Made by a program: the position numbers and the translations under genes
DNA from: a virus
Reading direction: 5' to 3' (one strand)
Virus record (IMG/VR): IMGVR_UViG_3300031539_000104
Coordinates: 1 to 41,667 of that record
DNA length: 41,667 nt
The notes under the pieces: model-generated
Seen by the model: only the letters and a program-made list of their open reading frames with translations
Told to the model about the DNA's origin: nothing
The model's database searches: none
In this document: in pieces, positions 27,386 through 38,226 of the stretch
Layout of the letters: each line of letters begins with the position of its first letter
Position numbering within the stretch: the first letter of the stretch is position 1

Positions 27386-27416
27386 AAAGGCCCGGCGTGC
27401 GCGGCGCCGGGCCTTT
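27386..27416. terminator. Strong bidirectional terminator
   Basis: AAAGGCCCGGCG (27386-27397) and CGCCGGGCCTTT (27405-27416) make a perfect 12-bp stem with a 7-nt loop. The flanking A and T runs let it work in both directions, ending the virion/lysis transcript on the + strand and the tRNA transcript on the minus strand. Confidence 0.85.
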
Positions 27417-27426
27417 GGTGTCTGTG

Positions 27427-27500
27427 TAGGGGAGAGGGGATTCGAACCCCCAACCTTGGACTTAGTAGGACCCCGCTCTATCCAATTGAGCTACTCCCCC
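27427..27500 (-). tRNA. tRNA, Arg-like body with anticodon ACT in a mismatched anticodon stem
   Basis: Read on the minus strand: acceptor GGGGGAG/CTCCCCT, D-arm GCTC-AATTGGATA-GAGC, T-arm GGGGG-TTCGAAT-CCCCT and 3' A73, with no encoded CCA. The D-arm GGATAGAGC and the AGGTT variable loop resemble tRNA-Arg(TCT/CCT). The anticodon loop CTACTAA would give ACT at 34-36, an unusual anticodon; TCT or CCT would be expected. The anticodon stem pairs 27:43 (G-A) and 30:40 (T-T) are mismatched. The gene may be degenerate or have a special use. Confidence 0.75.
27463..27493 (+). repeat. Anticodon/D-arm segment repeated in the small-RNA gene
   Basis: The + strand carries TAGTAGGACCCC (27463-27474), GCTCT (27475-27479) and GAGCTA (27488-27493), which are the antisense of the tRNA anticodon and D arms. 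The same three blocks recur in the same order at 27561-27572, 27579-27583 and 27584-27589. Confidence 0.7.
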
Positions 27501-27527
27501 AATCTACAGAAAGGTAGTATTTTCCCC

Positions 27528-27555
27528 TTGACATCTCAAGGAAATTGCCGATACT
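27528..27555 (+). promoter_or_regulatory. Sigma-70-type promoter for a candidate small RNA
   Basis: TTGACA (27528-27533), a 16-bp spacer and GATACT (27550-27555). Transcription would start around 27561-27563. An inverted repeat GGTAGTAT (27513-27520)/ATACTACC (27551-27558) brackets the promoter and overlaps the -10, as a repressor site would. Confidence 0.65.
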
Positions 27556-27560
27556 ACCTA

Positions 27561-27694
27561 TAGTAGGACCCCAAGGAAGCTCTGAGCTAAACCTTGGTGT
27601 TTTAGCCGGGAGAATCACCCGATAGCAAACCGGGAGGTGCTACGCGGCTAAAATCGCGGGCGGAGCACGGACGGTGTTCCGCCCCTTTTTTTTT
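27561..27694 (+). ncRNA. Candidate small RNA (about 130 nt) with 5' end complementary to the tRNA anticodon arm
   Basis: A promoter (TTGACA/GATACT) and a strong terminator bracket about 130 bases with no credible ORF. The predicted transcript folds into three hairpins. Hairpin 1 is CCAAGG (27571-27576)/CCTTGG (27592-27597). Hairpin 2 is TTTTAGCCG (27600-27608)/CGGCTAAAA (27645-27653), with inner TAGCA/TGCTA (27623-27627/27638-27642) and a CCGGGAGG loop. Hairpin 3 is the terminator. Its first 12 nt, UAGUAGGACCCC, are the exact antisense of tRNA positions 26-37, including the anticodon. Confidence 0.55.
27658..27694 (+). terminator. Rho-independent terminator of the candidate small RNA
   Basis: GGGCGGAGCAC (27658-27668) and GTGTTCCGCCC (27674-27684) form an 11-bp stem with one G-U pair, then nine T (27686-27694). 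Textbook intrinsic terminator. Confidence 0.92.
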
Positions 27695-27732: not shown

Positions 27733-27760
27733 TTGACAATCCCAGGGCAGTCATTATACT
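27733..27760 (+). promoter_or_regulatory. Sigma-70-type promoter for the integrase
   Basis: TTGACA (27733-27738), 16-bp spacer, TATACT (27755-27760), about 100 bases before the integrase ATG. A further TTGACA at 27806-27811 has no clear -10 at proper spacing. Confidence 0.75.
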
Positions 27761-27863: not shown

Positions 27864-28769
27864 ATGAACCCGCATGAAACCTTAGCCGTGGACTCCTTCA
27901 TATTTAACTGTGAGGCAAAACGGCTGACTGACAAAACTCTATCGGTCTACCAGGAGCGGCTTGACTACCTGATCCGGTGGGCCGCAGAGAAAGACCAATC
28001 GCTTTTGACCCTGCAAACATCCGACGTCCAGCAATATCTACTATCGCTCATGCGACGGGGCTTGGCCGGCATCACGATCAATGGTCGTCTGAAACTGTAT
28101 CGCCAGTTCTACCGCTACCTGCTGAGTCAGGAGCTGATCGGACATGATCCGACAGGCGGCATTCCCCTGGTCCGCTGCGAGAGACGGGTCAGACCGGTGA
28201 CCTCTCGAGAAGATCTCAAACGGGTCATCAGGGCCGTACGTCGGCGTCGGCGAGGTCAATTTTTCGGCCTGCGAGCTGAGATCATGCTCATGCTGGGCTA
28301 CGACACGATGTGTCGGCTCAACGAGCTGATCTCGATCCGGTTGGACGATATGTCGATCCGGGACCGGACGGTCCGTGTATTCGGCAAGGGCCGAAAGGAG
28401 CGGATCCTCGGCTTCGCACCGACGACAGCCGCGCGGCTGCTGGTGTATCTGGCACAGCGGGCGAAGCTCGAGATCCCGGGCGAGCTGCTGTTTTCGACGA
28501 AACGCGGCCGTCGGCTGATCTACCGAAACGTGCGGCACATATTCGAGCGGTGCGGCCAGCTGGTAGATCCACCGGTTGCACTGGCTCCCCACCAGCTGCG
28601 CCGATCGGCAGCCACACACTACTACGAGGACATTGGCAATATCCTGTTGATCCGCAACATCTTGGGGCACGAGGACGTCACCACCACCCAGCAGTATCTC
28701 AAGGTCGAGCAGCAGGATGTTCTGCGGTCGTACGAACGGCGGACGCCGGTGTCCGCCCTGAACATATAG
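27864..28769 (+). CDS. int: Tyrosine recombinase (phage integrase, XerC/D-like, 301 aa)
   Basis: I start at ATG 27864, preceded by CGGAGGGG; an in-frame TTG at 27831 has no ribosome site. The N-terminal SAM-like core-binding domain is about residues 4-90. The catalytic domain (about 110-290) has R151 (CRLNE), K175/K178 (GKGRKER), H243-x-x-R246, H269 (GHE) and the nucleophile Y278 (QQYLKV), a full tyrosine-recombinase set. The length is that of simple XerC/D-type recombinases without an arm-binding domain. It stands under its own promoter next to a tRNA gene and a tRNA 3'-half, fitting site-specific integration into a host tRNA gene. It indicates a temperate lifestyle. Confidence 0.92.
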   Translation: MNPHETLAVDSFIFNCEAKRLTDKTLSVYQERLDYLIRWAAEKDQSLLTLQTSDVQQYLLSLMRRGLAGITINGRLKLYRQFYRYLLSQELIGHDPTGGIPLVRCERRVRPVTSREDLKRVIRAVRRRRRGQFFGLRAEIMLMLGYDTMCRLNELISIRLDDMSIRDRTVRVFGKGRKERILGFAPTTAARLLVYLAQRAKLEIPGELLFSTKRGRRLIYRNVRHIFERCGQLVDPPVALAPHQLRRSAATHYYEDIGNILLIRNILGHEDVTTTQQYLKVEQQDVLRSYERRTPVSALNI

Positions 28770-34978: not shown

Positions 34979-35226
34979 TCTACGTCGACGAGGCCAGGAA
35001 TCGCTACGGCAGGTTCGTGATGAGTCACCTGTTTGCCTGTCCGGCGGATCCTGACGAGCTGGACCTGTTTGCGGGGCGGCTGGGTCTGCGCCCGGAATGG
35101 CGGCACAACGACCACTACGATGTCTGCCAGTCTTGGCGGCGCAGAGCTATCAAGGCCGGCGCGGTTCCCGTGAGCGGTCAGAGGCTGAGACGGCTTGTGG
35201 CCGAGATGAGAGGGCACGTGAGGTAA
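34975..35226 (+). CDS. DUF4031-family protein (83 aa)
   Basis: The GTG overlaps the RusA-like stop, with AGAGGAAAG ahead. The N-terminus IYVDEARNRYGRFVMSHLFA and the centre PEWRHNDHYDVCQSWRRRAIKAGA match the short DUF4031 family found in many phages, function unknown. Confidence 0.8.
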   Translation: MIYVDEARNRYGRFVMSHLFACPADPDELDLFAGRLGLRPEWRHNDHYDVCQSWRRRAIKAGAVPVSGQRLRRLVAEMRGHVR

Positions 35227-35228
35227 CT

Positions 35229-36074
35229 GTGAATGGCCTGGATCTATGTTCCGGCAGCGGTATGTTCAGCCTTGCGCTCAGACATATCGTGCCAGGATAC
35301 CGGACGGTCGGGTACGTCGAGGCGGAGCCGTACCGTCAGGCGCTTCTTGTCTCGCGTGCATGGCAAGGGTATCTGGACGATGCCGCAATTCACAGTGACC
35401 TCAGATCCTTCGATGGGAGCAGCCTATCGGGACTGGTTGACATCGTTACCTGCGGCTTCCCCTGTCAGCCTTTCTCTGAGAGCGGGCCGCAACTTGGAGA
35501 AGATGACCCCCGGAACCTGTGGCCGGACGTCCTACGAACCATTCGCGTGGTGGGACCGGAGTATGCGCTGCTGGAGAACGTTCCAAGGCTCCTTAGCTTC
35601 CGGTACTTTGGCACCATTCTCGGCGACCTGGCCGAGAGCGGGTATGACTGTGAATGGGATTGTGTTTCAGCGGCGCTCGTTGGGGCTTGGCACCGGCGGA
35701 CGCGCGTCTGGATACTGGCCCACCCCCAAGAGCCATCCGAGTGGACCGGATTATGCCCGTGCGAATCGAGCAGCGAGCGGCGCCGACGATCTCCTGACAT
35801 TCCTGCACAAGCGGCGCCGGTTGGCACCGACGCCGAGAGCTGCCGACTATCGCGGCACGGGACCGCGCGGCAGCAAAAGTCAGATTCATCGGGAAAAACA
35901 CAAGTGCCTGGATGGGTTCCTGGCGAACTGGTCTCCAGCTGGTGGAATCGTGAACCCCGACTGGCAAGACTGGTACATGGGGTGGCCAATGGGATGGACC
36001 GCGATACCTGCTCTGGCGACGGCATCGTACCGCAGGTGGTTGCGCGAATTCTCGATGTTTCGAGCGATGGTTGA
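35229..36074 (+). CDS. dcm: DNA cytosine-C5 methyltransferase (281 aa)
   Basis: I start at GTG 35229, five bases after GAGG. C5-MTase motifs in order: I GLDLCSGSG (3-11), IV GFPCQPF (76-82, catalytic Cys79), VI ENV (116-118), VIII HRRTRVW (155-161), and the late VHGVANGMDR and GIVPQVVA (motif X). The target-recognition region between VIII and X is short. It methylates cytosine to block host restriction. An overlapping frame covers nearly all of it. Confidence 0.9.
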   Translation: MNGLDLCSGSGMFSLALRHIVPGYRTVGYVEAEPYRQALLVSRAWQGYLDDAAIHSDLRSFDGSSLSGLVDIVTCGFPCQPFSESGPQLGEDDPRNLWPDVLRTIRVVGPEYALLENVPRLLSFRYFGTILGDLAESGYDCEWDCVSAALVGAWHRRTRVWILAHPQEPSEWTGLCPCESSSERRRRSPDIPAQAAPVGTDAESCRLSRHGTARQQKSDSSGKTQVPGWVPGELVSSWWNREPRLARLVHGVANGMDRDTCSGDGIVPQVVARILDVSSDG

Positions 36075-36090: not shown

Positions 36091-36413
36091 GATTCATCAA
36101 ACGGCTGAGGACTGCCTTCTATCTACGGCCAGAGCTGCTGGACTTCGCACACGACATGGAAACGACACTCCGGCGCCACGACCACAAAACTCACTGGAGC
36201 ACGTGCCGGACGGAGTATCTGGTTTTGAGGCTACGCAACAAAATTTTGGAACTCTCACTCGCAATTGTGGCGGAGCGATCAGCATCTGAGCTGCGAGCGG
36301 AGGCCGTGGATGTGGCGAACTACGCCATGATGATCGGGGATGTCGCGTCGCGAAAGCGGATAGCCTACCAATGGTTTGAAGACGAGACGGTCAGGAGGAT
36401 GCAGCACAGATGA
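36087..36413 (+). CDS. MazG-like small phage protein (108 aa)
   Basis: GGGAGGAAGGG precedes the ATG, which overlaps the upstream frame's stop. The HWSTCRTEYLVLRLRNKILEL and EAVDVANYAMMIGDV segments fit the small phage MazG-like helical pattern (EaaDVANfammiaD). Possible nucleotide pyrophosphohydrolase relative; the catalytic residues are not all clear. Confidence 0.5.
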   Translation: MRFIKRLRTAFYLRPELLDFAHDMETTLRRHDHKTHWSTCRTEYLVLRLRNKILELSLAIVAERSASELRAEAVDVANYAMMIGDVASRKRIAYQWFEDETVRRMQHR

Positions 36414-37192
36414 GCATACCGTACACCACACGGACGTGGAACCCGGTGACCGGGTGCTCCTGGGTCAGTCGAGGCTGCGACAACTGCTACGCTAAACGCT
36501 ACGCCGAGACCCGGCTGCGGAAGTGCGCGCGGTACGACAGCGACCATCCGTTCAAGGTGACGGTCCATCGGGATCGGCTTCGTGAACCGATCGGGTGGCG
36601 AAAGCCGCAGCGAATGCTCGTCTGCTCGATGGGCGACCCGTTTCATCCGTTGGTATCGGATGAGGTCCGCTCTGAGATCTTCGCCACCATGGCCGGGGCA
36701 CCACAGCATAGGTTTCTCCTGCTGACGAAGCGCGCCAGGTCAATGATCGGCTTTTGGCAATCAGTGGAGTGGGAGCTGTTCGGCACGGCGCCCGAGCTGG
36801 AGCACATCTGGCCGGGGGTCTCGGTTGAAGATCAGGACACCGCTGACGAACGGATCCCGACTCTGATATCGCTTGAATCGGAGTACCGCTGGGTGTCGAT
36901 CGAACCGCTTCTCGAGCCGATCAGGCTGAATGTTGCGCTCGGTGAGATAGACTGGCTCGTGATCGGGTGTGAGAGCGGGGCCGGTGCCCGTCCCTGCGAG
37001 GATAGCTGGATAGAGGACCTGCTGAACCAGTGCTGGGATCTGAACATTCCGGCGTACGTGAAGCAGGTGCAGATCAATGGAAAGGCCGTGAAGAAGATGG
37101 GGCGGTTCCCGCCGTCGCTGCAGGTGCGCAAGATGCCGGCGGAGTTGAGGCTGCCACAGGACGCCGAGTTTGAGCTGGACGGGAGGTACTGA
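36410..37192 (+). CDS. Phage Gp37/Gp68 family protein (DUF5131, radical-SAM-like, 260 aa)
   Basis: The N-terminus TWNPVTGCSWVSRGCDNCYA places Cys16, Cys23 and Cys26 in the CxxxxxxCxxC pattern of this family, followed by RYAETRLRKC. The PLLEP and VIGCESGAGARPC segments near 165-195 are also typical. It is widespread in phages; the substrate is unknown. The start overlaps the previous stop. Confidence 0.85.
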   Translation: MSIPYTTRTWNPVTGCSWVSRGCDNCYAKRYAETRLRKCARYDSDHPFKVTVHRDRLREPIGWRKPQRMLVCSMGDPFHPLVSDEVRSEIFATMAGAPQHRFLLLTKRARSMIGFWQSVEWELFGTAPELEHIWPGVSVEDQDTADERIPTLISLESEYRWVSIEPLLEPIRLNVALGEIDWLVIGCESGAGARPCEDSWIEDLLNQCWDLNIPAYVKQVQINGKAVKKMGRFPPSLQVRKMPAELRLPQDAEFELDGRY

Positions 37193-37545: not shown

Positions 37546-38226
37546 ATGACCTGGCCTGACGACTACATCGACAAGGTGATCTGCGGCGACTGTCTTGAGG
37601 TCATGAAGGGCATCCCCGACGGGGCGGTTGATGTTATTATCACAGATCCAGTTTGGCCGAACTGCAATGTTGTCATGGCGGGTAGTGATGATGCTTATCG
37701 TTTATTCGGCCGGGCCGTCCAGGAATTTAGGCGGATCACTAAGCCACTGGTGATTCATCTTGGTTGTGATTCCGACCCTCGATTTTTGTCGGCAGTCCCC
37801 GATTCTTTTCCATTCGTTCGGACCTGCTGGTTACGCCGCACCCCACCGACCTATAAAGGCAACATTCTGTATGGGGCAGACGTGGCGTACGTATTTGGCG
37901 ATGGCGCACTCCCTGGGGATGGTTCAAGGCTGTTGCCTGGAGAATGTGATTCTTCATCCCAGGGGCATCGAGATGATTGGAATACCCATCCCTGTCCAAG
38001 AAAGGAGACTCACGTACAATGGTTGGTTGCTAAATTCTCGCGGCCCGGGTGGCTTATCCTTGATCCATTCGCGGGGTCCGGTACGACGCTTTCCGCGGCC
38101 CGGGGGACTCGTCATTTCATCGGCATCGAGATTGAACCCAATTATTGCGAGATAGCGCGGGCACGGCTACGACAAGAGGAACTGTTCGCTGAACCAGACA
38201 ACAGCAACAAAGGAGAAGCCAAATGA
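37546..38226 (+). CDS. N6-adenine/N4-cytosine DNA methyltransferase (226 aa)
   Basis: The N-terminal GDCLEVMKGIPDGAVDVIIT leads to TDPVW (33-37), in place of DPPY/W, and the late LDPFAGSGTTLSAAR with FIGIEIEPNYCEIARARL is motif I and II. The order is the beta class. It likely modifies A or C at a short site to resist restriction. The valine in DPVW is unusual for an active enzyme. Confidence 0.85.
   Translation: MTWPDDYIDKVICGDCLEVMKGIPDGAVDVIITDPVWPNCNVVMAGSDDAYRLFGRAVQEFRRITKPLVIHLGCDSDPRFLSAVPDSFPFVRTCWLRRTPPTYKGNILYGADVAYVFGDGALPGDGSRLLPGECDSSSQGHRDDWNTHPCPRKETHVQWLVAKFSRPGWLILDPFAGSGTTLSAARGTRHFIGIEIEPNYCEIARARLRQEELFAEPDNSNKGEAK

Follow-up and report, generated by a model that had tools for sequence, protein, structure and literature searches.

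The locus and its surroundings

The window analysed here is a 41,667-base phage record from IMG/VR, and its genes include those for a portal, a major head protein, a Sak4-like protein and a 2988-aa helicase of the strawberry-notch type. A DUF5131 protein (E 3e-65) is encoded at 36410-37192, with a DNA methylase gene on each side (35097-36074 and 37546-38226). About 490 bp of non-coding DNA separate the end of the last late gene (27374) from the ATG of a tyrosine recombinase gene. Both a tRNA gene on the minus strand and a candidate small RNA (sRNA) unit on the plus strand lie inside this spacer (Table 1). The recombinase gene starts 170 bp downstream of the candidate sRNA, and its product begins with the core-binding domain, without a separate arm-binding domain. 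The second promoter in the spacer, as judged from its match to the consensus, probably serves the recombinase gene.

Table 1. Features of the spacer and the adjoining recombinase gene; positions are those of the window.
Feature	Position	Strand	Basis or remark
Phage tRNA, anticodon ACU, Arg-like body; proposed sRNA target	27426..27500	-	ARAGORN and alignment
First TAGTAGGACCCC copy, antisense strand of tRNA nt 26-37, anticodon included	27463..27474	+	sequence
Candidate tRNA promoter TTGAGA-17-TACCTT, weak, 8/12	27511..27539	-	consensus match only
Nested dyad, outer AGGTAGTAT/ATACTACCT, inner CCTTGA/TCAAGG	27512..27559	.	self-inverted score p 0.001
sRNA promoter TTGACA-16-GATACT, 10/12	27528..27555	+	TTGACA 27528-27533, GATACT 27550-27555
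Candidate sRNA, about 134 nt	27561..27694	+	start site inferred from promoter
5' tail, antisense to tRNA nt 26-37	27561..27572	+	mostly unpaired in predicted RNA
Hairpin 1, CCAAGG/CCTTGG	27571..27597	+	predicted fold
GCTCT/GAGCTA blocks, antisense relics of tRNA D stem, D loop lost	27579..27589	+	gapped alignment
Hairpin 2, TTTTAGCCG/CGGCTAAAA	27599..27655	+	predicted fold
Intrinsic terminator: 11-bp stem 27658-27684, T9 27686-27694	27658..27694	+	sequence
Second promoter TTGACA-16-TATACT, 11/12	27733..27760	+	consensus match
XerC/D-like tyrosine recombinase, 301 aa, ATG after GGAGGGG	27864..28769	+	domain comparison

The candidate sRNA unit

An earlier note on this DNA had proposed that a promoter and a terminator bracket about 130 bases with three hairpins and no ORF, and this description is borne out. 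Exact TTGACA-N17-ATACT sites occur only twice in the 41.7 kb, at the sRNA promoter and at the second promoter; the strength and the start site of the former are predictions. Among the plus-strand terminator-like sites listed, this terminator has both the longest stem and the longest T run. The predicted fold consists of three hairpins (MFE -61 kcal/mol, z -5.09), and none of 200 shuffled sequences was equally stable. If the transcript begins at 27561-27563, its tail is predicted to be mostly single-stranded. No convincing ORF or mini-ORF was found in the three plus-strand frames of the stretch. In an Rfam search no family reached the threshold at the sRNA, and the tRNA was the sole match above it. 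FsrA, Yfr1 and CC0196 were rejected, as these matches were sub-threshold and fell on the tRNA and on a hairpin at 27386-27416. At the level of sequence, the segment is a structured non-coding RNA with its own promoter and terminator, as an antisense sRNA should be, and it is tentatively predicted to be a free-standing small-RNA gene.

The -35 boxes of the divergent tRNA and sRNA promoters adjoin within the nested dyad (TTGACA followed directly by TCTCAA). The dyad may represent these adjoining boxes, or an operator. Four of the five window copies of the 9-mer AGGTRSTAY lie in the spacer (27512, 27559, 27635, 27829), and one copy covers the -10 box of the sRNA promoter; because the motif was defined from these very sites, the count is no independent test. 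CCCTTGACATC also occurs twice, at 27525 and 27803. Both repeats are probably binding sites for a phage regulator, and the clustering of AGGTRSTAY points to a putative bound protein that controls the spacer region. Arm sites of the lambda Int type were considered for these repeats, but the recombinase begins at the core-binding domain, and the repeats are therefore read as regulatory sites.

The phage ACU tRNA and its kin

ARAGORN names the tRNA as a tRNA-Ser, by the ACT anticodon alone. This identity was rejected: the molecule has a short variable loop, not the long variable arm for seryl-tRNA synthetase, and an Arg-like body that aligns with phage tRNA-Arg of the TCT and CCT types. Arginyl-tRNA synthetase of E. 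coli reads A20, C35, U36 and A73. All four residues are kept in the window tRNA, the anticodon of which reads a serine codon. Its anticodon stem contains two mismatches (27-43 and 30-40), and mismatches in the middle of this stem were found in many tRNAs with an ACT anticodon. About 24 further families of such tRNAs were collected by pattern scans of viral contigs and bacterial genomes. Arg-like ACU tRNAs occur in phages that are not related and in a small number of bacterial genomes (L011, L028, L036, L037, L039, L048, L057, L058, L062), and it is misleading to annotate them as tRNA-Ser. At L028 (275-349) and L036 (1687-1762), the ACU tRNAs adjoin what appear, on reading the sequence by eye, to be transposase genes. 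L035 carries a tRNA-Arg TCT at 134-207 and, 900 bp off, a copy with an ACT anticodon and a broken 3' half (1107-1181). This pair is an example of ACT copies arising via partial duplication.

The exact arm CGGGGTCCTACTAAGTCC is also present in another phage (L011-L013), on a tRNA with a different body. The arm core AGAGCGGGGTCCTACTAAG was found in none of 84,980 GTDB prokaryote species genomes, in a scan that covered this arm variant only; a host tRNA with this core is therefore unlikely. The earlier suggestion that the sRNA might act on a similar host tRNA thus found no support.

The match between the sRNA and the tRNA

TAGTAGGACCCC is present in identical form at 27463-27474 and 27561-27572, 98 bp apart. 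The first 12 nt of the predicted RNA had been claimed to be exactly antisense to tRNA nt 26-37, anticodon included, and this holds. An exact shared word of at least 12 between the tRNA and the 330-bp spacer arose in 69 of 20,000 dinucleotide shuffles (0.35%). Read in the tRNA sense, the spacer runs TAGCTC-AGAGC-(ttcctt)-GGGGTCCTACTA, which equals tRNA nt 8-37 minus the D loop; a single gapped alignment of these ordered blocks gave p 0.0035. The alignment supports the claim that the 5' part of the RNA derives from the antisense strand of the tRNA with its blocks in order, and a similar layout was found at two independent ACU-tRNA loci.

The predicted duplex has 18 bp and -29.1 kcal/mol, a value reached by one in 5000 shuffled tails, and the net gain from co-folding the sRNA with the tRNA is -13 kcal/mol. 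The paired stretch is gap-free on the tRNA (about nt 21-37), with a 6-nt bulge on the sRNA side. The 12-nt tail match is the longest exact match kept, and it lies at the predicted unpaired 5' end; no other close match to TAGTAGGACCCC was found within the phage. The complementarity is thus beyond chance and lies in a region predicted to be accessible, with the phage tRNA as the proposed target. It is plausible, from these models of pairing, that the sRNA regulates or sequesters the phage tRNA.

Parallel loci and searches for relatives

No relative of the window sRNA was found in the searched collections, so that there is neither covariation nor conservation to show. Searches with the integrase and the portal gave no usable relatives, and neither a tRNA nor an sRNA-like sequence was present on the loci retrieved for the Sak4-like relatives (L006-L010). 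The 16-mer TAGTAGGACCCCAAGG matched three viral contigs. These matches are attributed to chance, as all fall in coding sequence, two of them in collagen-like Gly-Pro-Gln repeats, and there is no tRNA on those loci. A check of seed and target conservation accordingly found no close relatives, but analogous pairs at L026 and L038 and none at L011.

For each ACU tRNA, both strands of the flanking 300-400 nt were searched for a copy of that tRNA's 5' half, with shuffles as the reference. Three loci stood out: the window and, from the further families, L026 and L038. An antisense copy was found in L026, a phage contig, with 42 columns aligned (p below 0.0005), and in L038, a contig of an Anaerolineales MAG on which the locus adjoins an endonuclease VII gene (p 0.0025). 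In both, a copy antisense to the anticodon arm lies 38-54 nt beyond the locus's own tRNA, with a -10-like box 6 nt before it (TAAAAT in L026, TATAAT in L038). Neither locus has a consensus -35 box, and L038 has no T run. In the predicted RNAs most of the antisense part is unpaired, and a GC-rich hairpin comes after it, with UUUUAAUUU in L026; the L026 stretch has a terminator-like end. The next gene in L038 is convergent, and the sRNA-like stretch of L038 was found in none of the 99 further genomes of its family that were searched. No tyrosine or serine recombinase was found in the 57.6-kb record of L026, and no tyrosine recombinase in the L038 contig. The base opposite A34 is retained in all three copies, and each therefore tracks the ACU tRNA of its own locus rather than a standard tRNA-Arg. 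L011 has an arm identical to that of the window, yet no copy was found in its 32.6-kb record; the tRNA/sRNA pair is therefore not obligatory.

As for controls, the retrieved loci contain about 200 further tRNAs, a partly redundant set; these gave only same-strand matches to neighbouring or decayed tRNAs and no unselected antisense case. A dedicated scan for tRNA-Arg TCT with a downstream antisense copy returned 74 loci, with an extended match in one family (L081, L083, L087, L103, L124, L137). There, TTAGAAGGCAGTTCTGCTC lies 49 nt downstream, antisense to the anticodon arm (L087 8448-8600). The extension is missing in the relatives L065, L102 and L113, and the family was therefore discounted as near chance. 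On these few cases, the antisense copy appears to be associated with ACU tRNAs.

Interpretation

The reading that we favour, with a probability of about 0.4, is that of a real phage antisense sRNA directed against the phage ACU tRNA. The transcript would start near 27561-27563, as its promoter suggests, form three hairpins and stop at the T9 terminator. By sequence and predicted folding, the 5' tail, a perfect complement to tRNA nt 26-37, would remain mostly single-stranded. Together with the GCUCU block it would then bind three parts of the tRNA: the anticodon loop, the 5' side of the anticodon stem and the 3' side of the D stem. Such pairing would mask the anticodon and open the arm, keeping the tRNA, or its precursor, inactive for as long as the sRNA is made. 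Since the two promoters stand back to back, transcription of the sRNA and of the tRNA may also exclude one another. The tRNA combines arginine identity residues with a serine-codon anticodon, so that one possible use, which is speculation, would be the silencing of a mistranslating tRNA, for example in the lysogen; it is likewise speculative that an arginine-charged tRNA that reads serine codons is harmful unless silenced. The promoter, the terminator, the strong fold, the complementarity and the recurrence all speak for this reading. Counting against it are the weak tRNA promoter, the missing copy in L011, the failure to find a relative of the window sRNA in the searched collections and the gaps in the parallel loci (no consensus -35 box in either, no T run in L038). 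So does the orientation of the window copy, which shares the strand of the tRNA just as a decayed tandem duplicate would; such neighbours occur in the controls.

That orientation is also what would be expected if the spacer is an attP and 27561-27589 is a degraded fragment of a tRNA 5' half, left by a past integration or a tandem duplication, with complementarity as a by-product. The spacer sits between the late genes and an adjacent tyrosine integrase, the usual place of an attP, and the AGGTRSTAY and CCCTTGACATC repeats cluster in it. The copy is a 5' tRNA fragment that ends in the anticodon loop beside a recombinase gene, as at tyrosine-integrase attachment sites in tRNA genes, where the anticodon is a known crossover subsite (PMC4383910). 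The Islander collection lists anticodon-centred attP sites in 2083 islands and 5' tDNA fragments in 159 (PMC4383910). Decayed tRNA copies beside tRNAs are known, moreover, in other phages examined. Unlike the Islander sites (PMC4383910), however, the intact tRNA sits 98 bp off in the phage genome and not in a host; the core AGAGCGGGGTCCTACTAAG was found in no searched bacterial genome; and no tyrosine or serine recombinase was found in the record of the best parallel, L026, nor a tyrosine recombinase in the L038 contig. An attachment site or decayed copy also leaves the promoter, the terminator and the strong fold unexplained, and on balance we consider this account, the main rival, somewhat unlikely.

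The independence of these three elements from the tRNA match would suit a genuine phage sRNA that acts on something else (an mRNA of the phage or the host, or a protein), in which case the match records its origin from tRNA sequence only and has no present function. The occurrence of the arm without an sRNA in L011 agrees with this. Against it, the match falls exactly at the predicted unpaired 5' end, where the longest exact match has been kept, the phage holds no second close TAGTAGGACCCC match, and L026 and L038 share the bias towards the anticodon arm. Other targets seem quite unlikely to us. As the terminator lies between the sRNA promoter and the recombinase gene, the RNA could instead be a leader of that gene resembling a T-box, in which pairing with the tRNA decides on read-through. 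The likeness to a T-box riboswitch lies in a terminator-bearing RNA that is predicted to pair with a tRNA anticodon arm. However, no Rfam T-box match was obtained at E up to 5, the pairing would extend over 12-18 bp of the arm, whereas a T-box pairs through a codon-like triplet and with the 3' end of its tRNA, and the fold shows no obvious competing antiterminator. The recombinase also has a better promoter of its own past the terminator, and the convergent gene in L038 does not suit a leader. A T-box-like leader is very improbable.

The antisense reading can be extended. The unusual tRNA, with an arginine-type body and a serine-codon anticodon, and the antisense neighbour masking its arm might form an RNA-only switch or a toxin-antidote pair, with at least three separate origins (window, L026, L038). 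This extension we hold to be unlikely as a whole.

Relation to known systems and significance

The lambda OOP, P1 c4 and P4 CI RNAs are phage antisense regulatory RNAs. Like them, the candidate is short and structured, has its own promoter and terminator, lies in a regulatory region of the temperate phage type and is predicted to be complementary to another phage RNA. Those RNAs pair with phage mRNAs or leaders, whereas the sole long complement in the window phage is the anticodon arm of a tRNA. The proposed sequestering of a specific tRNA by an RNA recalls the CreTA toxin-antitoxin system, in which CreT sequesters its tRNA through codons in a translated mini-ORF (PMC8501985). Unlike CreTA (PMC8501985), the window unit would use antisense pairing, has no mini-ORF and has no Cas genes among the genes scanned. 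An unusual anticodon loop is shared with phage tRNAs whose anticodon loops are altered (PMC10264068). However, those tRNAs keep their decoding identity, whereas placing ACU on an Arg-like body changes which codon is read. No account of a phage RNA antisense to a tRNA turned up in text searches of open-access papers.

If the locus is a relic of an attachment site, it would still be instructive, as a tRNA fragment on which a promoter-terminator unit has grown up. If the antisense sRNA is real, a single phage would encode both a tRNA that is expected to misread serine codons and the RNA that silences it, and the pair would offer a simple route to testing the purpose of odd phage tRNAs.
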